Shown here in pieces: positions 34,119-61,634 of a DNA stretch of 64,000 nt. Every line of letters begins with the position of its first letter. Position 1 is the stretch's first letter. A program made the position numbers and the translations under genes. The notes under the pieces were generated by a model. The model worked only from the letters and a program-made list of their open reading frames with translations. It had not been told where the DNA came from and ran no database searches. Origin of the DNA: Thioalkalivibrio sp. ALJ21 (GTDB lineage: Bacteria > Pseudomonadota > Gammaproteobacteria > Ectothiorhodospirales > Ectothiorhodospiraceae); assembly GCF_000378605.1 (NCBI RefSeq), contig NZ_KB905156.1, positions 663,209 to 727,208 of the forward strand. The letters are read 5' to 3'.

Positions 34119-34964
34119 ATGTGGGGATGGGGAGACGTTTTTGGGGGCCTGCGGCGGCCCGTTTGTTACCAGCTCCCGCGGGCCCTGTTCTGGATGGCGA
34201 TACCGCTTGCGCTGCTCGCCCTGCTGATTGCACCGGGCCAGGCGGTCGCCGATCCGTTGCCCGATACGGCCGAGCGGGTAAAGGCCTCGGTGGTGAGTAT
34301 CGCGACCTATCAGCCGACCCGCAGCCCACGCGCCCAGTACCTCGGGACCGGCTTTGTGATCGACGATGGCCGTCTGGTGGTCACCAACGATCATGTCCTG
34401 CCCGGGAGTCTGGACCAAGGCAACCGCGAACGGCTGGTGGTGGTCAGTGGCCAGGGTCGGGACAACACCATCCATCATGCCGAGGTCGTGGCGCGCGCTG
34501 CGGGCGATGACCTGGTCCTGTTGCGCATCGCCGCTCCCTCCCTTCCCGCGCTGCAACTCGGCAACTCCAGCCGGGTGCGGGTCGGAGAAGAGGTCGCGTT
34601 CACCGGCTACCCCATCGGCATGATCCTGGGGCTGTACCCGGCCACGCATCGCGCGGGCATCTCGGCGATGACCCCGATGGCGATCCCGGCGCGCCGTGCC
34701 GCGGAGCTGGATGACAGCCGCATACGCGCCCTGCGCAATGCCCCGCCAATGGTCTTCCAACTGGATGCCACGGCCTACCCGGGCAACAGCGGCAGTCCCC
34801 TGTACCGCAAGGACACCGGCGAGGTGATCGGAGTAATCAACCAGGTCTATGTCCAGGGCGGGCGGGAAGCGGCCGTGCGCAATCCGAGCGGGATCACCTA
34901 CGCCATCCCATCGGACCGTATTCGCCCCCTGCTGGAACAGTACCGCTCGCGGGCGGGCGATTGA
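34119..34964 (+). CDS. Secreted trypsin-like serine protease
   Basis: A 281-residue S1-fold protease with an N-terminal signal sequence or anchor (hydrophobic core about 24-43, ending GQAVADPL). The catalytic triad is His92 (TNDHVL), Asp131 (GDDLVLL) and Ser224 (GNSGSPL). No PDZ domain follows, unlike DegP. It would act in the periplasm or at the surface. The ATG at 34119 lacks a clear ribosome site; the start could lie slightly downstream. Its stop codon overlaps a GGGAAAC-family terminus. Confidence 0.87.
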   Translation: MWGWGDVFGGLRRPVCYQLPRALFWMAIPLALLALLIAPGQAVADPLPDTAERVKASVVSIATYQPTRSPRAQYLGTGFVIDDGRLVVTNDHVLPGSLDQGNRERLVVVSGQGRDNTIHHAEVVARAAGDDLVLLRIAAPSLPALQLGNSSRVRVGEEVAFTGYPIGMILGLYPATHRAGISAMTPMAIPARRAAELDDSRIRALRNAPPMVFQLDATAYPGNSGSPLYRKDTGEVIGVINQVYVQGGREAAVRNPSGITYAIPSDRIRPLLEQYRSRAGD

Positions 34965-34979
34965 TCAGTGTTTCCCTAA
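34961..34979 (-). repeat. Solo terminus of the GGGAAAC element family
   Basis: TTGATCAGTGTTTCCCTAA matches the right end of the element at 17597 over ATCAGTGTTTCCCTA. It overlaps the protease stop codon (34962-34964) and abuts the end of the convergent nucleotidyltransferase gene. Confidence 0.65.
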
Positions 34980-36094
34980 CCGTGCTGTTCCGGCTGCGGC
35001 TGGGCTGTGGCCGTCTCCGGTTTCTCGGCGAGAAAGGCCTTGTGGAACAGGTGTCGCGCCAAAAGGCCGGCCGGCATCTTGAGCCAGTGCCCACGCAGAA
35101 ACAGCATGCCCCGTGCGACCGCATCGCGGCGTGGGGTGACCGAGCCGGCGCGCGTGTGCAGCCCGTGCACGAACGCCCAGCGGCCAAGTCCCCGCAGGGC
35201 AATGCCCGCGCGTGCCCGGGCCAGCCGTTTCACGGGCTCGGGCGGGATATCGGTCAGCAGTAGTCGGTTCGTGGCCCACAGCGCGCGTTCCGCCATCCAG
35301 GCGATGTTCAGGGCCTCGGCTTCCGCGACGAAGTGTTCCCAGAAGGCGTCGCCGTCACGTGCGCCGAAATAGCCAAGCAGCACATGGATGTCGTAGAGGT
35401 CGCGCAGGCCCCGATCCCATTCCGTCTCCGAAAACAGGTGCACGATTGCGTGGAGTACCAGGTGCGCCGGGCACAGGATGCGGAAGCGGAAGGGTTCCGG
35501 GAGCGCCTGGCTTTGCTGCCGCAGGCGTGCGGGATCGGGGTGGCCGCGGAAGGTCTCCGGCAGGATGTTGTGGTGCAGGTCCAGCGTGGTGCCGCGGTTC
35601 TGGTGCACCAGTGGCGGCAGTTCGTGCATCCACTCGCGGTAGTAGCGCTGGTCGTAGACATTGTGGTGCGTGCCCGACCAGCCCTCGAAGAACAGGAGCT
35701 TCTCGGCCCGTTCCACCTCGCTGCGGGGAAAGAGCAGGTCGATGTCGTTGGCCAGCCGTCCACGCGCATTCGGCAGCCCGGCGGCGAGGTAGGCCGCCCC
35801 TTTCAGCGCGACACCCGGACTCATCCGCGAGAGCAGCCCGTTGTCCAGGCGGCGCAGTTCCCAGGCCAGGGCCTGCGACCGATGCTCGGCGATCAGGGCG
35901 GCGCCCCAGAGGTGGCGGGCCACCGGTTCCGGCAGGCCGTCCGCCAGGCCCGCGTCGTCCGCGAGGTGCCAGAGCGTACCCAGCAGTGCGCTCTCGCGCG
36001 CGGCCGCCAGTAGCGGGGCCCACTCGGCCGCCGTGCGCTCGGCCATGCTCTCCGGCCGTGCCAGGGCCAGGCGCAGTGCGGTGTCAGCGTCCAT
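34976..36094 (-). CDS. Nucleotidyltransferase-family protein of the HprK/PqqD operon
   Basis: A 372-residue protein of the uncharacterised NTP_transf_5 type. The nucleotidyltransferase core shows VALKGAAYL (about 95-103) and NDIDLLF with Asp117 and Asp119 as probable metal ligands; a helical C-terminal half follows. In some lasso-peptide clusters a homologue acts after an HprK-like kinase and further modifies the phosphorylated peptide. Here it is the last gene of a leftward operon and overlaps the HprK-like gene by 11 bases. No signal peptide, so it acts in the cytoplasm. Substrate is unknown. Confidence 0.82.
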   Translation of the reverse strand: MDADTALRLALARPESMAERTAAEWAPLLAAARESALLGTLWHLADDAGLADGLPEPVARHLWGAALIAEHRSQALAWELRRLDNGLLSRMSPGVALKGAAYLAAGLPNARGRLANDIDLLFPRSEVERAEKLLFFEGWSGTHHNVYDQRYYREWMHELPPLVHQNRGTTLDLHHNILPETFRGHPDPARLRQQSQALPEPFRFRILCPAHLVLHAIVHLFSETEWDRGLRDLYDIHVLLGYFGARDGDAFWEHFVAEAEALNIAWMAERALWATNRLLLTDIPPEPVKRLARARAGIALRGLGRWAFVHGLHTRAGSVTPRRDAVARGMLFLRGHWLKMPAGLLARHLFHKAFLAEKPETATAQPQPEQHG

Positions 36095-36995
36095 CGGCCA
36101 GCCTGTTGAACTGCTCTATAGCCTCGTCCAGACGGCTGTAGGAAAAGTCGAAGCATGCGGACTGTTCGACCAGTCGTCCGGCGCTGTGAAAGCCTCGTGC
36201 ACCGAGGGCGGCGTAATTGAAGGCATTGGCGATCAGCTGCATGAACCCGGAACCCGCCGTGCGCGGTTTCAGCTGGGTAGAGGCTCCTGGCTGGTAGTGC
36301 GGGAACACGATCCACCCGGGCCGGGCGGTCTCGTGACTGCGGCGCACGGCATCCGTCGGCGGGCGCATGTGTGCCACGGCGCCCTTCAGCGTGTCCGCGA
36401 TCGGTGTGCTGAGAACCGCCGAGGGGCAGGCATCGCGGATTACGCGGATCGAGTCGTTTTTCAGGCTGACCGGCCGCGCGGGCCCGGAGACCTCGCTGGA
36501 GGCCAGGTCCACCAGTACGGACTCGTCCGTCAGCAGGCGCCATCCGTGATGGGCCAGGGCTGCGCAGAGGGTGCTTTTCCCGGAGCCCGGCGGCGCGGGC
36601 AGGATCAGGGCCTTCCCGTCGCGTTCCAGGGCGGCCGCGTGCAGCACCAGTCGATGCGGCACCTGGTTGGCGATGCACCAGTTCAGTCCCCATTCGAGCA
36701 TCGGATAGGCCTGGTGGTAGGCCAGGGGCTTGAAGACGCTGCGACGGTCGGCGAGAAACAGGACCTGGGGCCGATAGAAGCGGCGGTGGGAACGCGGTGC
36801 GCGCAGTTCGCAGTGGAAGTCGTAGAAACTCGAGTGGTCGGCTACTTCGAAGTCCCGGTACAGCGATTCGATACCCCGGGCCACGCTGGCGATCGGGCTC
36901 TGGATGCGGCTGGTGAAGGGGCCAGTGCGCAGATAAAGGCCACGGCCCGTCAGGCTGCGCTGGAGCCGGGCCTGTCCCAGATCCGCGATCCGCAT
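36084..36995 (-). CDS. HprK-related kinase A
   Basis: A 303-residue protein of the HprK-related (HPr-rel-A) family. The P-loop APPGSGKST is at 134-142, followed by LLTDESVLVDL, like the HprK/P nucleotide core, but the N-terminal half is unlike true HPr kinase and no PTS gene is nearby. Family relatives in lasso-peptide clusters phosphorylate a Ser of the precursor. ATG at 36995 overlaps the PqqD-like stop (TGATG) and its end overlaps the nucleotidyltransferase start, so the three are translationally coupled. Starts further upstream belong to shadow frames. Confidence 0.87.
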   Translation of the reverse strand: MRIADLGQARLQRSLTGRGLYLRTGPFTSRIQSPIASVARGIESLYRDFEVADHSSFYDFHCELRAPRSHRRFYRPQVLFLADRRSVFKPLAYHQAYPMLEWGLNWCIANQVPHRLVLHAAALERDGKALILPAPPGSGKSTLCAALAHHGWRLLTDESVLVDLASSEVSGPARPVSLKNDSIRVIRDACPSAVLSTPIADTLKGAVAHMRPPTDAVRRSHETARPGWIVFPHYQPGASTQLKPRTAGSGFMQLIANAFNYAALGARGFHSAGRLVEQSACFDFSYSRLDEAIEQFNRLADGR

Positions 36996-37261
36996 CAGGG
37001 GTGTTCCCGGATCAGATCGGCCGTGTGCAGGCTGGACAGCCAGCGCCCCAGTTCGGCCTCCGCGTCCTTCTCCGACAGGCCCAGGTGCCGGGCCAGGGCG
37101 GCCTCGTCCATCGCCGCGCCCTCGGCCAGACCGTCCATCAGTGCGGCGGCCGCGGGTGTCAGCAGGTGGGTGGTACCGGCCCCGGGGTGAAACACCACGC
37201 ACTCCTGCCCCAGGGTGCGCTGTTGCAGCCCGTCAGTCCGTTGCCACCTGCGGCGCGACAT
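36995..37261 (-). CDS. PqqD-like protein (HPr-rel-A system)
   Basis: An 88-residue winged-helix PqqD-family protein: CVVFHPGAGTTHLLTPAAAALMDGL then DEAALARHLGLS and a helix WLSSLHTADLI. PqqD-fold domains are the RiPP recognition elements that hold a substrate peptide for modifying enzymes. It lies between the secreted protein gene (52 bases upstream) and the HprK-like kinase (one-base overlap), making it the likely adaptor between them. No pqq or radical SAM gene is present. Confidence 0.88.
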   Translation of the reverse strand: MSRRRWQRTDGLQQRTLGQECVVFHPGAGTTHLLTPAAAALMDGLAEGAAMDEAALARHLGLSEKDAEAELGRWLSSLHTADLIREHP

Positions 37262-37313
37262 ATCGTTCCCCCTGGCTTCCGGCCATCACGGCGGCCATTA
37301 CGGAATGAATGGC

Positions 37314-38024
37314 TCAGGCGGACCCCCAGCTCGGGAGGCCCATCGTGTTCTCCAGGAACCGATACACCTGCTCGGGGTACAGGCGGTCGCCGCCATCGGT
37401 CTCGTAGTGGCCATGCTCCAGGGTGTCGGTGACGATGTCCCGGACCAGGCGTTCGGAGAGCGGGTACCCGTTGGTGTACTTGGCATTCAACAGTGCGGCG
37501 GTGCCGTGGCGGATCACTTCGCGTTCGGCTGCCCCCTGCACATCCAGCACGAACACTGAGGCAGAGACGGCCCCGATCATGGTGAGATCTCCTTCCTCTT
37601 CCTGGAAGCCCCGGCTCACGCCCGGGAAGCCGTAGTTCGAATCGAACAGGACGCCGGACTCCACCGCCAGCCGCCATTCCGGATGGCTGTGGAAGGAGGC
37701 GCTGTTGAACAGTTGACCGCCGCCGCCACGGCCCTGGCCACTTACATTCTGCGAAAGACTGGCATGCGTCGGGTCATAGCCCCCGCTCCAGTAGTCGGGG
37801 GAGTGGCCGCCGCAGTCCTGGGGCCCGTCGTGGCGCGACACATTGCCGGACGCCCAGCCCGAGGGCATGCAGTTCGCACCGGCCGCCTTCAATGGCGAGG
37901 CATGCAGGGTCATCAGTAGAGGGGTGGCCCCGAGCATCGCCCGGCTCAGACGCCGCCGATTGTGGCCGTGTGTACCCAGCCCCTCCTGGCGCCGGCTTGA
38001 GTCCTGGTTGTCGTTTTGTTCCAT
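37314..38024 (-). CDS. Secreted protein, candidate substrate of the HprK/PqqD operon
   Basis: A 236-residue protein of unknown function, first gene of the operon, with CTGGAGGG as ribosome site. The N-terminus is long, ends in RRRLSRAML (Arg23-25) and a hydrophobic stretch (about 29-43), then PLKAAGA: a Tat-like signal. The mature part has DCGGHSPDYW (70-79), a Gly-rich patch (about 96-103), RHGTAALLNAKY (172-183) and a C-terminal helix ending GLPSWGSA with Ser232 and Ser235. Similar secreted proteins accompany HPr-rel-A genes elsewhere, from memory. It is not a PEP-CTERM protein and has no enzyme motif I know. Confidence 0.78.
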   Translation of the reverse strand: MEQNDNQDSSRRQEGLGTHGHNRRRLSRAMLGATPLLMTLHASPLKAAGANCMPSGWASGNVSRHDGPQDCGGHSPDYWSGGYDPTHASLSQNVSGQGRGGGGQLFNSASFHSHPEWRLAVESGVLFDSNYGFPGVSRGFQEEEGDLTMIGAVSASVFVLDVQGAAEREVIRHGTAALLNAKYTNGYPLSERLVRDIVTDTLEHGHYETDGGDRLYPEQVYRFLENTMGLPSWGSA

Positions 38025-47934: not shown

Positions 47935-49176
47935 TCAAGATCTCCCGCTCCCGCGTGAGATGCTGCGGCGCAGAGACGAAAGGAGGCGTGGCCCTCGGGA
48001 ACGCCCCCATCGTCTGCGTACCAGGTGTAGCACTGCCAGCGGAAGGGGTCTCAACCTCGTGGGGAAGGCAGCCCCATAGGCCTTCAGTTGGTCGCGGATT
48101 GCGTCGGAGAGATACCCATCTCCGTGAACCTGGACGGAAGGGAGCCCCCAGTCGGCATTAGCCTCCACAATGACCGGTCCGTCGACGGTCAGAGCGATAT
48201 CCCAGCCAATAGAACGTGCCCCGGAGAATATCCGTGCCGCGTGTTCACATAGTTCCAGGGTGGCATTCCAGTCGGGAATCCGAAGGCCTTCGAACGGAGC
48301 ACCTGTTTCTGGATGGGACGCGCTCCATTCGCCCCCGAACTCGGCCTTCCGAACACCCTTGCCAAGCTGCCCCGTGCTGGGGTCAACTCGGATCGACAGA
48401 CCACCTTTGTCCCAGTTATCGGTCGCGTTGTCGCCGCAACCGACTCGTAGAATGGAATGGTGTATGTGGACGTTACCTTCGGTATCCATGAAGGTCACGA
48501 TCCGGAAGGTATTGACACTGCTGGGGTTGAGTGCAGCCAGAAACGGGTGTTGGCGCAAGACCTCTTGAATAATCCAGCCGGGATAGCGGTTCGTATGGAC
48601 ATCGAACACATCTTCGGCGAGACAGGCGGGAAACTCCGTAACCGGTACGGTTCGACCATCATATTGAACATCATCCGTGCCATCCGACCTCCTCTGGATC
48701 GTCGCTTTAGTAATGCTGTCCCCGCGCGATCCGCCGCGCGGCTTGAAGATCAGTTCTGCTACATCGCTAGCGCGCAGCAGCGCACACAGGTCCTGCGGAT
48801 TCCGTAATGGGTCACCGCTGGCAGTTAGGCCTACAACCGGATGGTAGAGCCCCAAGGTGCGCGGTACGGGTACCGCCAGCGCGGAAAGGACCTGATGCGT
48901 CATCCACTTGTCGTCAAGGAGGTGCTTCTCGTAGCCAATATTTATGCAGGGATGGTAACGGCGGTGATTCTCCTCAAACGACAGGTAGCGCATGGCAAGC
49001 TGGGGATTGCCAAGGTTCTCAAACCCGTACAAGGAGTATTCCCGGCGGGTGAATCCGCTACCCAATATCCGTGTTTTATCTGTGTTCACAGAACTATCTC
49101 CATTGACCGTCCGAGCAGCGTGCGATGGGCCCAGTGAGAATGCTCCCGACTTGTCGGGCCGCTCAGTCTTTCCCAT
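47935..49176 (-). CDS. Sugar-transfer-associated ATP-grasp protein
   Basis: A 413-residue ATP-grasp protein of the group often beside capsular glycosyltransferases. LIFKPRGGSRGDSI (about 145-158), WIIQEVL, FRIVTFMD and VDGPVIVEANADWGLPSVQ outline the ATP- and metal-binding core. Such enzymes ligate a carboxylate to an amine or alcohol; the group is functionally unproved. ATG at 49176 has no strong ribosome site. Base composition is lower in GC than neighbours, suggesting transfer. It follows another ATP-grasp gene by five bases. Confidence 0.82.
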   Translation of the reverse strand: MGKTERPDKSGAFSLGPSHAARTVNGDSSVNTDKTRILGSGFTRREYSLYGFENLGNPQLAMRYLSFEENHRRYHPCINIGYEKHLLDDKWMTHQVLSALAVPVPRTLGLYHPVVGLTASGDPLRNPQDLCALLRASDVAELIFKPRGGSRGDSITKATIQRRSDGTDDVQYDGRTVPVTEFPACLAEDVFDVHTNRYPGWIIQEVLRQHPFLAALNPSSVNTFRIVTFMDTEGNVHIHHSILRVGCGDNATDNWDKGGLSIRVDPSTGQLGKGVRKAEFGGEWSASHPETGAPFEGLRIPDWNATLELCEHAARIFSGARSIGWDIALTVDGPVIVEANADWGLPSVQVHGDGYLSDAIRDQLKAYGAAFPTRLRPLPLAVLHLVRRRWGRSRGPRLLSSLRRSISRGSGRS

Positions 49177-49181
49177 TTTAA

Positions 49182-50411
49182 TTATTTCGTTACTTTCAGG
49201 GCGTCCCGCAAGGCATTTCTGGTGTCTTTAATGAATGGTATTGGATCCATCATGTTGAAGACGAAGTAATGGTTTCCAGGCCGAAGTGGATAAGTCAGAA
49301 AACCTACAGCCTGCCAAAGTGGACTTCCGCTCTCCGGTGCTGGGCCTGCGTTGCTCCTGTTTTTTCTCAGAATTTCCCATAGGTATTTCGCCTCGTGGAC
49401 GAATGACAAGCACCTTATTCCTGGGATGCATTTCTTCCGAGCGACCGTTCCACGCTGCTTGCAATGGACGCTGTCCGATACGAATCGGACGCCGGAGTGA
49501 TAGGCCAATGGCAAACTGCCCCAGAAACGTCCGTTTACTTCGATCAGATACAACTCCCCATCATGAGGGCTCCTTCGGTACTCCAGCATCGCAACGCCTT
49601 CCCACTCCAATGACTTAAGGAAGCCGACCGTCTTCTCAAAAGCCTCCCCTTCCTCATCGGGATCTAGCGACTCACATAACGCCGATATTCCCCCGCTAGG
49701 AGGCCACTCATGTAGCCTTTTGTGCGCACACCGCACGACGGCTTCCCCATCATGCATCAACACGGTGTGGCCCACGCCCTCGCCCGGGCAATAGGCCTGA
49801 ACCATCGGTACAACACCCGCATTCAGCATGCACTCTATCCGGGCGCGCAAGGCATCAATGTCGTAGTAATACTCACACTTCTCTATCTGGATTCCTGACC
49901 TTTGCAGTCTGAGCGGGTCTTCGTTCACGTCGTTTGCCTTCACGATAATTGGGAACTGCCCCGACTCGAACCTGTTTGGATGGGACAGTACTTCGTGCGG
50001 ATCGTACATAGGCGGGACCCGTAGTCCATACTTCGATGCCTCCTGGTTAAGTAGTCGTTTGTCCAGAACTTTGGAAAGTTGGCTTTGATCCGGGAACATC
50101 ATCTCCACGCCTTGGAACTCGTGCCTGTGGTAGTTGAGGCGAATGATGTCGGCCTCCCACACTGCAAATACATGGGTCACTGCATCGGAACGGATGATCT
50201 CGGATACAAAAGGCACCAGATCGTCCACGCCCGGAGGGATCAGATACTTCTTGGTGACATAGCGTGAAGAAAACCCCAATGCATCGCGGCCACGTGATGC
50301 TGCGATCACATCGAATCCTGCCTCTCCAAGTTCTCTGACAATGGCGAGTCCAATCCTGCCACCAACTCCGATGACGAGAGCTCGAATATCGTCTTGATTC
50401 CACTCAGGCAT
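49182..50411 (-). CDS. ATP-grasp carboxylate-amine ligase-like protein
   Basis: A 409-residue protein. A Rossmann-like preATP-grasp domain (ALVIGVGGRIGLAIVRELGEAGF, about 11-33) is followed by ATP-grasp elements: FPIIVKANDVN, GVAMLEYRR and LYLIEVNGRFWGSLPLA. The build matches carbamoyl-phosphate-synthetase-like ligases in O-antigen loci. ATG at 50411 is used; GTG at 50420 is an alternative. Its GC content is clearly low (28 of 60 bases G or C at 49261-49320). It lies between two other ATP-grasp genes on the same strand. Confidence 0.82.
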   Translation of the reverse strand: MPEWNQDDIRALVIGVGGRIGLAIVRELGEAGFDVIAASRGRDALGFSSRYVTKKYLIPPGVDDLVPFVSEIIRSDAVTHVFAVWEADIIRLNYHRHEFQGVEMMFPDQSQLSKVLDKRLLNQEASKYGLRVPPMYDPHEVLSHPNRFESGQFPIIVKANDVNEDPLRLQRSGIQIEKCEYYYDIDALRARIECMLNAGVVPMVQAYCPGEGVGHTVLMHDGEAVVRCAHKRLHEWPPSGGISALCESLDPDEEGEAFEKTVGFLKSLEWEGVAMLEYRRSPHDGELYLIEVNGRFWGSLPLAYHSGVRFVSDSVHCKQRGTVARKKCIPGIRCLSFVHEAKYLWEILRKNRSNAGPAPESGSPLWQAVGFLTYPLRPGNHYFVFNMMDPIPFIKDTRNALRDALKVTK

Positions 50412-50426
50412 GTTCAGCACGCGGCG

Positions 50427-51509
50427 TCAACGCATTAGGAAAGGTCGGGGGTCGCTCATCGCCTGCCAGAGACCGCGCAGGTTGTACGGGGCGATCCCGC
50501 GCCACTGGCGGGGCTGCCAGAGCAGGTGTTTCAGCAGGTGGCTGTGCAGGTGGTAGGCACCGGCCGCGGGGGAGGCGCGTACAGCCGGGCTCCCCGCGGC
50601 CAGCGCAAAACCCGCCTCGACGAAATTGATCCCGGCCCACAGCGAGGCCTGCAGGGTGTACCAAAAGCGCGGATTGCACTCGAGTACGCGCACGTCCCCG
50701 GTCGATTCATCCACGCGCAGGTCGATATTCGCCACGCCGGTATAGTTCGCCGCCCGGACGATCCGGCGACCGATCTCCAGCAGCCGCTCGTCGGTGAAAA
50801 ATTCCAGCGAACAGGGATTCCGGCGCGATTGCAGGAGATGGCAGACCACTTCCCCATCCCGGGCCAGCAGGCTCAGGTCCGCGTCGAATCCGGGCACATA
50901 TTCCTGCACCACCAGCGGGAATTGGGCATGGCGGCCACCTCTCTCCAGGTGGGCCTCGATGTCCTCGAGCCGCTTCGCCTGAAGGATTCCATGGCTGGAT
51001 TCGCCGTACAGTGGTTTGACCACGACTGGGAACGCCATCCCGGCATCCTGCAGGTGCTCCAGGTCTTCGGGGCTTTCCAGGTGCAGTGCCCTTGGACACG
51101 GGATTCCATGGGTCTCCATGAAACGTTGAAAGGTCCATTTGTCGTCCAGCATGCCCAGCACCTCCAGGCTGCTGGAGGGAAAGGCCGTCACGCCCGGCAG
51201 GCGCGGTGCAAGCGCGTGGACTACGCCGGCCCCCAGGATGTCGGCCCCGATAATCCCGTCGATACGGTGTCGTGTGCAGTAGTCGCGCAGGTGGTCGCCA
51301 AAGGCTTCCAGGGTTTCCGGCTGGGTGTCCGGCAGGGGCATGCGCTGGTAGCGATCGCGGTACCGGGAGTGACGGGCGGCCCCCGGGGATTTGAGCTCCA
51401 GCAGGTGGATCTCGGCGCCGAGGCGCTGCAGGCAGTACAGCACCTTCAGGGCAAGCGGCGAACCGTCGGAGAGCACCGCGACGCGCTGCGGCATGGGGAT
51501 TTCGGTCAT
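50427..51509 (-). CDS. ATP-grasp protein, third of the cluster
   Basis: A 360-residue ATP-grasp ligase of normal high GC. VAVLSDGSPLALKVLYCLQRLG (about 9-30) starts the preATP-grasp domain; FPVVVKPLYGESSHGI, PLVVQEYVPGFDADLSLL and LRVDESTGDVRVLECNPRFWYTL form the ATP and metal sites. ATG at 51509 overlaps the stop of the acetyltransferase upstream (ATGA), so the pair is coupled. It probably activates a carboxylate for amide formation; the acceptor is unknown. Confidence 0.83.
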   Translation of the reverse strand: MTEIPMPQRVAVLSDGSPLALKVLYCLQRLGAEIHLLELKSPGAARHSRYRDRYQRMPLPDTQPETLEAFGDHLRDYCTRHRIDGIIGADILGAGVVHALAPRLPGVTAFPSSSLEVLGMLDDKWTFQRFMETHGIPCPRALHLESPEDLEHLQDAGMAFPVVVKPLYGESSHGILQAKRLEDIEAHLERGGRHAQFPLVVQEYVPGFDADLSLLARDGEVVCHLLQSRRNPCSLEFFTDERLLEIGRRIVRAANYTGVANIDLRVDESTGDVRVLECNPRFWYTLQASLWAGINFVEAGFALAAGSPAVRASPAAGAYHLHSHLLKHLLWQPRQWRGIAPYNLRGLWQAMSDPRPFLMR

Positions 51510-52081
51510 ACCGGCAGGCGAAGTTGAATGCGCCGGGAGAACGGGCAGATCTCGATATAGGAGCCGGCGACCCGCCAGCCGGTTTTTTCGCTGACCCGGA
51601 TCGAGCTCTTGTGGCTGTGCCAGATGCGGCTGTACAGGCGGGTGAAGCCCCGTTGCGACATCAGGTAGGCCGTCTGCCTTTTCAGCAGGGCCGCATACCC
51701 CTGCCCGCGATGCTGGGGCAGGGTGTACAGCCCGGTCGATTTCGCCGCCCCCTCGGGCAGTCTCCAACTGCGCCCCTGGCGCTCTTCCTCGTACCGCGCG
51801 CCCCACCAGTACCATTGCACCGCCACGAGCTCATCGTCGCGAAAAAGGCCGAAGCCCTGTGCTCCTTCGCCTCCGAACTCCCGACGCTGGAGCATCCCTT
51901 CGTCCACCACGCCGTCCAGGTCCTCGGGGGTGATCGGCTCGACCCGGATGCCCTCGGGCAGTTCGGCCGCGGGCTGCGGGAGGTCGATATAAAAGACCTT
52001 CCAGTACTGGTAATCGCCCAGCCCCAGGTGCAGGGCCTCCTTTAAAAGGCTGCGCGGACTGTAAACATTGACGGTGGCCAC
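51506..52081 (-). CDS. GNAT-family N-acetyltransferase
   Basis: A 191-residue GNAT-fold protein, start GTG at 52081 (MATVNVYSPRSLLKEALHLG). The fold is marked by IRVEPITPEDLDGVV, VQWYWW, TGLYTLPQHRGQGYAALLKRQTAYL with the acyl-CoA loop RGQGYA, and SSIRVSEKTGWRVAGSY. It is the first gene of a leftward cluster with three ATP-grasp ligases and is coupled to the third by an ATGA overlap. The substrate may be an amino sugar or amino acid substituent. Confidence 0.82.
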   Translation of the reverse strand: MATVNVYSPRSLLKEALHLGLGDYQYWKVFYIDLPQPAAELPEGIRVEPITPEDLDGVVDEGMLQRREFGGEGAQGFGLFRDDELVAVQWYWWGARYEEERQGRSWRLPEGAAKSTGLYTLPQHRGQGYAALLKRQTAYLMSQRGFTRLYSRIWHSHKSSIRVSEKTGWRVAGSYIEICPFSRRIQLRLPV

Positions 52082-58462: not shown

Positions 58463-59854
58463 CTAGCGCGAGACGCCGGGCGCCCCGGTGGCGCTGTCGG
58501 GCTCGGCGCGCGTCGGGAACGCATTTGCCTGGACCGGTGCGGGCACGGGTGCCTCGGCCGCGCGGGGTGCTTCTTCCAGTTCGCGGCGCATGATGACGGC
58601 CAGGGCGATGAACGCGAACAGCAGGTTGAAGTAGATCACGTCGAGGAATGCCCCGGCGGCCAGGTAGCCGAGCAACCCCACCTGGATGGCCCAGGCGTAT
58701 TCCGCTAGCCAGATCTGCCCCGTCTCGAGTCGGGCTCGCTTGCGGATCCGGTTCAGCGAAAAAAACGTGAAGCCGACCAGCAGCAGGAACGTGGCGAGCC
58801 CGCCAAAGCCATGCTCGCCCATCAGGCCGAAATAGATGCTGTGCGGCGACAGCACGTGGCGCCAGTCCCCTTCGAAATTCGCATAGCCGACCCACCAGTC
58901 ATAGCCGAGGTGGTGGTTGCGAAAGCCCATCCCGGTCAGCGGCCGCTCGGTGGCCATGTTCCAGTTCACGCCCCACGCCTGGATGCGCTGCATGGCGGAA
59001 CGGTCTTCCTCGTAGGTCTCGATCGTGCTCCAGCGGTCCAGCAGGCGATCCGGCGCGGTAACCCCGATGACCCCGAAGGCCAGCACGCCAACCATCACCA
59101 TCGCCAGCTTGTGGCGCATGTGCCAGAAGAGGAACGGCGCCACCACCAGGAATCCCAGCAGGGCTCCCCGGGAATAGGTCGCGAGGATCGCGATGGCGGT
59201 CAGCCAGAACACGCCGTAGACGGCCCAGCTGATCGGCCGGTAGAAGCGCTCCAGGCCCGGGATCTCGAGATCCACCCAGCGCTCGCGGAACAGCCGCGCG
59301 CTGACCAGGATCAGCGGCAGCACCATCACCATTGCCAGTCCGATGTACGTGTTCCCGGCCAGATAGGAGCCCGGCGGGCCCAGCACCATGTACTGCCCGC
59401 CCGTGGACAGTGTGAACAGGCCGCCCTTGAACCCGTAAAAGGCGATGGAGAATGTAATAACTAATAACAGCCAGACGATACGAAGCTGACCGAATATCAG
59501 CATGGGTGTGATAAATGTAATCAGCAGGATCTTAAAAACGTGCTGCCAGAAGTCCCATGCGCCGCTGGAATTTACCGCAAAATACGAAGTCATGGTGATG
59601 TAGCCGAGAAAGACCCATAACATCACCATCTCGCGCGTCATTGGCATTGGCCGGCGATCCTTGGCCAGAAACAGCGCGGCCAGCGTCGTCATGCCGATGA
59701 CGGCGGCCACGGGGAAGGTGCGCATGAAAGACCAGGTGAGGCCGTGCGGGGCCATCAGGCCGACCCAGAACCAGGCCGGGATGCCGACCCAGGGCCTTGC
59801 CAGGATCACCGGGATCAACACCATGATTATAAAAAAAAGCAGGTAGTCGCGCAT
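58463..59854 (-). CDS. Exosortase-A-associated O-glycosylation ligase-like protein
   Basis: A 463-residue membrane protein with about 10-12 TM helices and the Wzy_C/O-antigen ligase region. It matches the family of probable O-glycosylation ligases found with exosortase A: LLFFIIMVLIPVILARPWVGIPAWFWVGLMAPH (read in parts), the long loop NMATERPLTGMGFRNHHLGYD, and SPHSIYFGLMGEHGFGGL. The C-terminal tail is Ala/Pro-rich and cytoplasmic. It would polymerise or transfer glycan at the periplasmic face. Divergent from the acyl ligase gene across an intergenic palindrome. Confidence 0.9.
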   Translation of the reverse strand: MRDYLLFFIIMVLIPVILARPWVGIPAWFWVGLMAPHGLTWSFMRTFPVAAVIGMTTLAALFLAKDRRPMPMTREMVMLWVFLGYITMTSYFAVNSSGAWDFWQHVFKILLITFITPMLIFGQLRIVWLLLVITFSIAFYGFKGGLFTLSTGGQYMVLGPPGSYLAGNTYIGLAMVMVLPLILVSARLFRERWVDLEIPGLERFYRPISWAVYGVFWLTAIAILATYSRGALLGFLVVAPFLFWHMRHKLAMVMVGVLAFGVIGVTAPDRLLDRWSTIETYEEDRSAMQRIQAWGVNWNMATERPLTGMGFRNHHLGYDWWVGYANFEGDWRHVLSPHSIYFGLMGEHGFGGLATFLLLVGFTFFSLNRIRKRARLETGQIWLAEYAWAIQVGLLGYLAAGAFLDVIYFNLLFAFIALAVIMRRELEEAPRAAEAPVPAPVQANAFPTRAEPDSATGAPGVSR

Positions 59855-59909: not shown

Positions 59910-60035
59910 TGAAAACGGCGATAGTATTCAGCCCATTCGAAGAGTAGCCTATTTACCGAACGAGTGGGTATGGGGTTGTAAAAGATTCGTACTCGGCTGC
60001 GTGCCGAATCCACATTGACGGAGTCCATTCTGATC

Positions 60036-61634
60036 ATGCGTCACACCACCCTGCTGCACGAAGGCGTTCTGCACAGCGCCGAGCGAAACCCAATGGCCTC
60101 GGCCATCACCCATCGGGGGGTCACGCAGTCATACGAGGCGGCCGCCAGCGACATCGAGAACGCGGCGCGACGGCTACTCGCCACCGGGCTCCAGCGACAG
60201 GACCGGGTTGCGGTGTATCTGGACAAATGTCCGAAGGCGGTCCATGCGATGTTCGGGGCCTCGCGGGCGGGAGGGGTGATGGTCCCCGTCAACCCGCTGC
60301 TGAAGGCCTCGCAGGTCGCGCACATCCTTCGGGACTGCGGGGTGCGTGTCCTGGTCACGTCCGCCGTGCGCCATGCCGCGCTGCGCGATGTCCTGGCGCA
60401 ATGTCCGGAGCTGGACACCATCCTGTTCGTGGACACACCGCCCGACGCCGACACATCGAGCGGGCCGCGGCTCGAGGCCTGGCAATCGGCGGCGGATTTC
60501 GGGCTGGGCCGGACGGCCCATCGGGTCATCGACACGGACATGGCGGCGATCCTTTATACCTCCGGCAGCACTGGACGGCCCAAGGGCGTGGTGCTGTCGC
60601 ACCGCAACCTGGTGGCCGGTGCGCAAAGCGTCGCGCACTATCTGCACAATCGCGCGGAGGACCGCATCCTCTGCGTGCTGCCGTTCAGCTTCGATTACGG
60701 CTTCAGTCAGTTGACCACCGCGTTCCTGACCGGCGCCCATGCCACCCTGCTTAACTACCTCCTGCCCCGCGACGTGCTGAAGGCGGTGAGTCAGGGCGGG
60801 ATCACCGGGCTGGCGGCAGTGCCACCGCTGTGGATCCAGCTGGCCGAGATGGAATGGCCGGAGGCCGCGCGGCGATCCCTGCGCTACATCACGAACTCGG
60901 GCGGCGCGATGCCCCTGAAGACCCTGAAGCGTCTGCGGGCGCATCTGCCGCGCACTCAGGTCTATCTGATGTACGGCCTCACGGAGGCCTTCCGTTCGAC
61001 CTATCTGCCGCCCGAGGAGGTCGATCGTCGACCCGACTCCATGGGGCGGGCGATACCCAATGCCGAGGTCATGGTCGTGCGCGAGGACGGCAGCCGTTGC
61101 GCGCCCGGAGAGCCCGGCGAGCTGGTCCATCGCGGGGCCCTGGTCGCGATGGGCTACTGGAACGATGCCGCGCGTACGGCCCAGCGCTTTCGCCCCGCGC
61201 CGGGGCAACCCGAAGGCCTTCCAGGCCAGGAGATGGCCGTGTGGTCCGGGGACACGGTGCGGATGGACGAGGACGGATATCTGTACTTCGTCGGCCGGCG
61301 CGACGAGATGATCAAGACCTCGGGGTATCGGGTGAGCCCGGTGGAGATCGAGGAGGTTGCCTATGCAACGGGGCTGGTGACCGAAGGGGCGGCGCTGGGT
61401 ATCGCGCATCCGCAGCTGGGTCAGGCCGTCGTCCTGGTCGCGCTGCCCGCCGAACCCTCGGTGACCCATGACCAGTTGATGGCACTGCTGCGCGAACGCT
61501 TGCCGGCCTTCATGGTGCCCAGCCACCTGGAGCTGCGGTCGCAATCCCTGCCTCGCAATGGCAATGGCAAGATTGACCGCAAGGCGCTGGCGGCCGAGTT
61601 CGAGGGCCTGTTCCAGGAGGTCGCCCTGTCATGA
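60036..61634 (+). CDS. Exosortase-A-associated AMP-forming acyl-CoA ligase
   Basis: A 532-residue ANL-superfamily adenylating enzyme. P-loop YTSGSTGRPKG, YGLTEAFRSTYL, and C-terminal GRRDEMIKTSGYRVSPVEIEE with NGNGKIDRK (catalytic Lys) are intact. It belongs to the exosortase-A-associated ligase family, always near the PLP decarboxylase and acyl carrier genes; the acid substrate is unproved. ATG at 60036 is used, with TTG at 60015 as alternative. The stop overlaps the decarboxylase start as ATGA. A regulator palindrome lies upstream. Confidence 0.93.
   Translation: MRHTTLLHEGVLHSAERNPMASAITHRGVTQSYEAAASDIENAARRLLATGLQRQDRVAVYLDKCPKAVHAMFGASRAGGVMVPVNPLLKASQVAHILRDCGVRVLVTSAVRHAALRDVLAQCPELDTILFVDTPPDADTSSGPRLEAWQSAADFGLGRTAHRVIDTDMAAILYTSGSTGRPKGVVLSHRNLVAGAQSVAHYLHNRAEDRILCVLPFSFDYGFSQLTTAFLTGAHATLLNYLLPRDVLKAVSQGGITGLAAVPPLWIQLAEMEWPEAARRSLRYITNSGGAMPLKTLKRLRAHLPRTQVYLMYGLTEAFRSTYLPPEEVDRRPDSMGRAIPNAEVMVVREDGSRCAPGEPGELVHRGALVAMGYWNDAARTAQRFRPAPGQPEGLPGQEMAVWSGDTVRMDEDGYLYFVGRRDEMIKTSGYRVSPVEIEEVAYATGLVTEGAALGIAHPQLGQAVVLVALPAEPSVTHDQLMALLRERLPAFMVPSHLELRSQSLPRNGNGKIDRKALAAEFEGLFQEVALS

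Follow-up and report, generated by a model that had tools for sequence, protein, structure and literature searches.

The 64,000-nucleotide (nt) window analysed here, from Thioalkalivibrio sp. ALJ21 (contig NZ_KB905156.1, positions 663,209 to 727,208 of the forward strand), contains a four-gene cassette encoding a protein predicted to be exported (S), a PqqD-like protein (D), an HprK-related kinase (K) and a nucleotidyltransferase (N) (Table 1). As described in the initial annotation, the four genes are co-oriented and the last three overlap: all lie on the minus strand, with 52 nt between S and D, one base shared by D and K (the TGA of D and the ATG of K) and 11 nt shared by K and N. The longest open reading frame (ORF) would start K at GTG 37202; this start was rejected as too early, and the conserved ATG at 36995 is preferred. 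A further gene, for a putative secreted protease (P), had been overlooked; it is convergent with N and lies 11 nt beyond it.

The PqqD-fold, HprK-like and NTP_transf_5 identities assigned earlier to D, K and N all hold, as the cut-offs were exceeded by D against NCBIfam TIGR04353 (64.9 bits, cut-off 35), by K against NCBIfam TIGR04352 (413 bits, cut-off 200) and by N against Pfam PF14907 (176.6 bits, cut-off 31.2). D and K, both above the curated cut-offs, are thus members of the HPr-rel-A system of NCBIfam. With the Pfam PqqD model D scores 20.1 bits, under the cut-off of 23.4, and a search of the ALJ21 genome with this model at E ≤ 0.001 returned no match, although TIGR04353 matches D. In Thioalkalivibrio thiocyanoxidans ARh2, the nearest named relative, K is 95% identical. 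No family was found for S in Pfam or NCBIfam at E ≤ 1. Scans found no promoters (0.4 expected) and 4 terminators (2.5 expected).

Table 1. Features of the cassette and of its surroundings, in window coordinates.
Feature	Position	Strand	Family match
S, proposed exported substrate/precursor protein, 236 aa, without named family	37314-38024	-	
S residues 23-47, twin-arginine leader with TLxSxP-type box (here TLHASP)	37884-37958	-	
S residues 52-63, C-x2-SG-x2-SGN-x-S, proposed modified region	37836-37871	-	
S residues about 72-228, PGYW...LNA module (approximate boundaries)	37341-37811	-	
D, PqqD-like protein of the RiPP recognition element (RRE) type, putative peptide-binding protein, 88 aa (RiPP: ribosomally synthesized and post-translationally modified peptide)	36995-37261	-	TIGR04353, over cut-off
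K, HprK-related kinase A, predicted PEPCK/HprK fold	36084-36995	-	TIGR04352, over cut-off
N, NTP_transf_5 nucleotidyltransferase, KG...DxD...D site	34976-36094	-	PF14907, over cut-off
P, serine protease of the trypsin type, putatively secreted; gene convergent with N; proposed to act in maturation	34119-34964	+	
PEP_O_lig_1, exosortase A-associated	58463-59854	-	
ligase_PEP_1, exosortase A-associated	60015-61634	+	

The linkage of the cassette genes is strong. It was counted in the best 80 of 214 confirmed relatives of K (the named loci, designated by L numbers), which by their titles come mostly from beta- and gammaproteobacteria. In a profile search, 77 of the 80 loci showed S on the same strand as K and at most 2.5 kb upstream of it; D, counted with a profile cleaned of kinase ORFs, lies upstream of K in 78 (exceptions L051 and L057), and N follows downstream in 77 (exceptions L082, L095 and L117). 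In two of the three loci without an upstream S, K is located less than 600 bases from a contig end (L068, L082), and in the third (L123) S is found downstream of K on the opposite strand. One additional S match (20 bits) was obtained among the 8274 ORFs of the named loci. Two unusual arrangements were encountered: a single 700-aa ORF that matches K and N, apparently a natural K–N fusion (L095:2560-4662), and a second leader-like ORF with a D-like gene upstream of the main S gene, possibly a tandem duplication (L106:7387-8284).

A corresponding pattern was observed when whole genomes (G numbers) were compared. K is present above the cut-off in 22 of 229 genomes of the class, and S adjoins K in 21 of these; the remaining one (G134), missed by the S count, has a divergent S-like ORF of 33 bits. 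Among the 207 genomes without K above the cut-off, 8 contain an S match (Fisher p = 3e-22 for co-occurrence, uncorrected for phylogeny). In four of the 8 (G080, G084, G099 and G215) only the C-terminal module of S was matched, and in the other four (G036, G101, G167 and G184) the leader region was matched and a sub-cut-off kinase is present, in G036 on another contig. The co-conservation of the secreted gene with the kinase and PqqD genes, on which the initial annotation had staked its reading, is therefore seen in loci and in genomes alike.

In the alignment of 53 S proteins (numbering of the window S), the leader consists of a twin-arginine motif, RRx[FL]x[KR], a short hydrophobic stretch that includes P35, T39, L40, S42 and P44, and then A/G47; R24 is invariant, R23 is found in 52 sequences, P35 in 41, T39 in 38, S42 in 43 (position 42 is Ala in the window S) and P44 in 38. 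Directly behind it stands C-x2-S-G-x2-S-G-N-x-S, in which S55 and S59 are invariant, C52 is present in 51 sequences and S63 in 46, and a basic residue lies between the twin-arginine motif and Cys52 in 42 of the 53. A set of 99 longer S rows agrees (S55 in 93 of 98, S59 in 94 of 99). The sequence continues with C71 and the PGYW...LNA module; C71, P76, W79, L179 and N180 are nearly invariant. The leader has the motif and hydrophobic stretch expected of substrates of the twin-arginine translocation (Tat) system, and TatC was found in 28 of 28 genomes tested. A conserved C-terminal Ser, proposed earlier as the mark of the secreted protein, is absent from the aligned S relatives; the invariant Ser residues stand directly behind the leader.

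Other proteins, with no RR among their first 50 residues, carry the PGYW...LNA module as well, at their C-terminus. In all five leaderless copies examined, the 60 residues that precede the module lack SG-x2-SGN, and because of this the Ser stretch appears to travel with the leader and not with the module. The loci of these proteins (L151-L155, e.g. L151:1026-2453) belong to genomes with (G015) and without (G080, G084, G099, G215) K above the cut-off; the proteins were judged by eye to be exported, and L155 may be cut by a contig start. A Pfam scan of four leaderless-module proteins gave no name for the module. The AlphaFold model of S is poor, with a mean predicted local distance difference test (pLDDT) score of 63.7; Foldseek with this low-confidence model returned no match in the PDB at E ≤ 0.001, and the S profile gave three weak matches to PDB sequences (E 0.37-0.98).

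K and N retain the expected catalytic residues. The P-loop APPGSGKST of K and the DID site of N, both pointed out in the initial annotation, are present, and GxGKST and DxD are invariant among the aligned relatives. Across 31 sequences of K, 39 columns are invariant, among them His118, the GxGKST loop and Asp156-Glu157 (alignment numbering); Lactobacillus casei HprK, aligned at E 0.0013, has its His, P-loop and Asp at the matching positions. The predicted structure of K has a mean pLDDT of 95.7, and Foldseek returned PEPCK as the top match (4e-7) with HprK lower (1.6e-4). K is thus predicted to have a PEPCK/HprK fold with an active-site His, P-loop and Asp. For N, KG, Arg113, Asp117-x-Asp119 and Asp172 are invariant in 29 sequences, which suggests a complete-looking nucleotidyltransferase site; the N profile had no match among PDB sequences. 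D is variable among relatives, and the window D is a clear family member.

A precedent for such a set of proteins exists in lasso peptide biosynthesis. The passages of PMC8498205 on lasso tailoring describe an HprK-like kinase that phosphorylates a Ser, a nucleotidyltransferase that adds a hexose to the phosphate, and a B1 protein that binds the leader. The cassette resembles the paeninodin and pseudomycoidin systems, as presented in these passages, in its combination of an HprK-like kinase and a nucleotidyltransferase with a putative leader-binding RRE protein. However, the candidate substrate here is a 236-aa protein with a twin-arginine leader, and the candidate Ser lies behind the leader rather than at the C-terminus. 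The reported absence of a lasso B2 protease was confirmed, with 0 matches to PF13471 in the ALJ21 genome at E ≤ 0.001. With neither B2 nor a C-terminal Ser, the cassette is a member of HPr-rel-A and not a lasso cluster. Of the phospho-tailoring interpretation offered in the initial annotation, the co-conservation of the four genes and the catalytic residues of K and N stand, and the conserved C-terminal Ser does not.

On balance, we lean towards a leader-guided protein-tailoring cassette, in which S is modified in the cytoplasm and then exported. The steps that we infer are binding, phosphorylation, addition of a second group, Tat-dependent export, cleavage and a role at the surface. D would bind the twin-arginine leader of cytoplasmic S, K would phosphorylate a Ser directly behind the leader (Ser55 and/or Ser59), and N would add to the phosphate a group from a nucleotide donor; by analogy with pseudomycoidin, this group would most probably be a sugar or a nucleotidyl residue. 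Modified S would then be exported by Tat, be trimmed by the linked secreted protease P, and work at the surface of cells making exopolysaccharide of the exosortase A type. The action of D, K and N on S is modelled on the lasso precedent because a kinase and a nucleotidyltransferase act on Ser there and B1 binds the leader. Since proteins leave by Tat after folding and modification in the cytoplasm, this route would suit cytoplasmic tailoring of S.

The candidate for the trimming step, P, matches PF13365 with 88.2 bits and has a signal-like N-terminus; against each of the NCBIfam models listed for it, it stays far under the cut-off. Its invariant columns include His92, Asp131 and Ser224, by position the putative catalytic triad. 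A P profile trained on 15 loci of one cluster and the window P was run on the named loci at E ≤ 1e-10; matches were found in 22 of the 80, none of them farther than 2.8 kb from the start of K, with P either upstream of K on the same strand or downstream on the opposite strand. At E ≤ 1e-25, P gives a single match per genome and is present in 18 of the 22 genomes with K, compared with 1 of 22 controls (Fisher 2e-7); this sole positive control (G010) has XrtA. P and K share a contig in 12 genomes and lie within 6 kb of each other in 11. In two genomes of the same genus (G021:C45, G169:C3), P was seen about 2 kb from tatC rather than beside K.

The cassette is associated with exosortase A (XrtA). 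The two exosortase A-associated ligase genes of Table 1 lie within the window; the gene for XrtA is located beyond it, at a distance of 45 kb from K. Of the 22 genomes with K, 18 have XrtA above its cut-off, compared with 3 of 22 controls (20 and 6, respectively, at E ≤ 0.001), and in the five genomes with both genes on one contig the K–XrtA distance is 29-57 kb. Furthermore, an exopolysaccharide export gene is found between P and S in seven loci of Massilia and relatives (L046, L055, L059, L062, L064, L069, L087); TIGR03027 is above its cut-off in L046 and L062, the two of the seven checked, and also in L072. The cassette thus resembles the XrtA/PEP-CTERM exopolysaccharide system in co-occurrence and neighbourhood. 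S itself, having no NCBIfam match, is not a recognised PEP-CTERM protein. Within the exopolysaccharide region of the window, three consecutive minus-strand genes (47935-51815) have weak matches to RimK-like/carbamoyl-phosphate-synthase-like ligases. Other recurrent neighbours (ThiF-like genes, UDP-sugar enzymes and NtrC-like regulators) were considered as cassette parts and rejected, since by eye they look like local synteny or exopolysaccharide genes.

This association also admits the first of two main rivals: a building block of the exosortase A exopolysaccharide, for example a sugar or a lipid, would be the substrate of K and N, and S would be a surface protein that takes part in the same process without being their substrate. 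The XrtA counts and the export gene between P and S would fit this. However, D, as a PqqD-like protein present in 78 of 80 loci, argues for a peptide as substrate; in three of the distant loci discussed below (L132, L136, L144) a short leader peptide is encoded between D and K, and four of the 22 K genomes have no XrtA above the cut-off. We consider this explanation unlikely, if worth keeping in view.

The S leader profile also matches small ORFs beside kinases that score below the cut-off. Of these sub-cut-off kinase loci, 16 distinct ones were inspected, and six of them (L132, L133, L134, L136, L144 and L145) encode a leader peptide 56-149 aa long; L133 has two such peptides, and that of L145 was assigned by pattern only. 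The peptide gene follows directly after D in L134, L136 and L144. Leader peptides were also found in L135 and L137, with no kinase match within the fetched stretch. By eye, Gly-Ser occurs a few residues past the leader in 8 of 9 short peptides, the exception being L145. In L133 (4576-4749 and 6212-6391) the leader peptides lie on both sides of one kinase; Gly-Ser motifs recur in each of them, as would fit modification at several sites. When the distant kinases were used to search 398 genomes of the phylum, 42 genomes had a match at E ≤ 1e-20; of the 30 loci returned (two from known genomes), 17 contain an S/leader match at E ≤ 0.01.

These short versions bear on the second main rival, in which S carries a cofactor: K would phosphorylate and N adenylylate a small molecule, D would act as a signal-peptide chaperone that retains S up to loading, and Tat would export the folded holoprotein. 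Dinucleotide cofactors are classically made by a kinase and then a nucleotidyltransferase, as in the synthesis of FAD or CoA; Tat substrates often bear cofactors, and the linkage of D, K, N and S is compatible with such a scheme. Conversely, leader peptides of 56-60 aa in distant cassettes are small for an ordinary cofactor-binding domain, and the best-conserved residues of S form a short Ser/Gly/Asn stretch in a protein whose model, itself of low confidence, matches nothing in the PDB. Cofactor loading therefore appears improbable to us. A regulatory switch of the HPr kinase/phosphorylase kind, phosphorylating HPr or D and controlling expression of the exopolysaccharide locus, could draw on the distant HprK similarity of K, on an HPr in the genome and on NtrC-like genes flanking 17 of the 80 named loci, yet it is very improbable, as K scores 14.8 bits against the canonical TIGR00679 (cut-off 240), the NtrC-like genes stand at scattered offsets outside the cassette, and HPr (PF00381), the sole phosphotransferase system component searched for, lies 443 kb from K, in line with the earlier remark that no such genes are near.

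Several observations weigh against leader-guided tailoring of S. The S profile was trained on 51 of the 77 S found, with 26 untrained, and the ALJ21 genome is both one of the 21 S-positive K genomes and a training row. The cassette is patchy in the genus, where a single-sequence S search matches 8 of 30 genomes; the same kind of search gave a match in 11 of 58 relatives. The stricter SG-x2-SGN-like pattern is present in only 38 of the 53 S, with Gly and Asn variable, and the Tat signal model PF10518 (TAT_signal) recognises 3 of the 53 at E ≤ 0.1, the window S not among them. Ser55 and Ser59 could be invariant for structural or export-related reasons instead. P is found without K in one genome and is missing from 4 of the 22 K genomes. 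Likewise, 10 of the 16 sub-cut-off kinase loci have no leader peptide (L139-L143, L150, L023, L025, L026 and L027, the last four viewed to 1.5 kb only), and no S/leader match at E ≤ 0.01 was found in 13 of the 30 distant-kinase loci.

Because of these 13 loci, the kinase system is wider than S. Nine of them belong to one family of genomes (f196), with D and K present and N not within 1.5 kb; three (f202) have N and no S, and the remaining one has K only. The f196 loci (L162, L164, L165, L167, L169, L172, L174, L176 and L182) show a D–K pair with no leader peptide within 1.5 kb, possibly a two-gene version with another substrate. Branches without S, if protein-modifying, must use a different protein.

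The NCBIfam descriptions of HPr-rel-A (TIGR04352, TIGR04353) name no substrate; here S, N and P are found linked to the pair. K also matches TIGR04249, the SynChlorMet protein ScmC, weakly (30.9 bits, far under the cut-off of 125), and ScmC is a component of a peptide-modifying cassette. In the literature searched, outside the scope of which lay most subscription journals, no paper was found under the HPr-rel-A family names or accessions, for HprK, PqqD and nucleotidyltransferase together, for exosortase with HprK or PqqD, for HprK with PqqD, or for twin-arginine, PqqD and precursor peptide. Two lasso peptide papers mention both an RRE and HPr kinase. PEP-CTERM with PqqD led to PMC3023750, whose passages on these terms are not on point.

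A bolder extension of leader-guided tailoring would make these cassettes an unrecognised RiPP-like class, in which a single N-terminal sequence acts in Tat export and in leader recognition alike, the modified Ser follows directly behind it, and the products range from about 56 to 300 aa; a phospho-sugar built on S by K and N would then be a covalent anchor or primer for exopolysaccharide in exosortase A bacteria. We regard this as doubtful. The pairing of S with D, K and N is widespread, and suggests that S undergoes chemical modification within the cell prior to being exported. A likely substrate family of HPr-rel-A can thereby be named, the candidate modified site is narrowed to two Ser residues, and a likely maturation protease is added. 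Protein phospho-tailoring would in this way be linked to exosortase A exopolysaccharide systems, and a defined experiment becomes possible.

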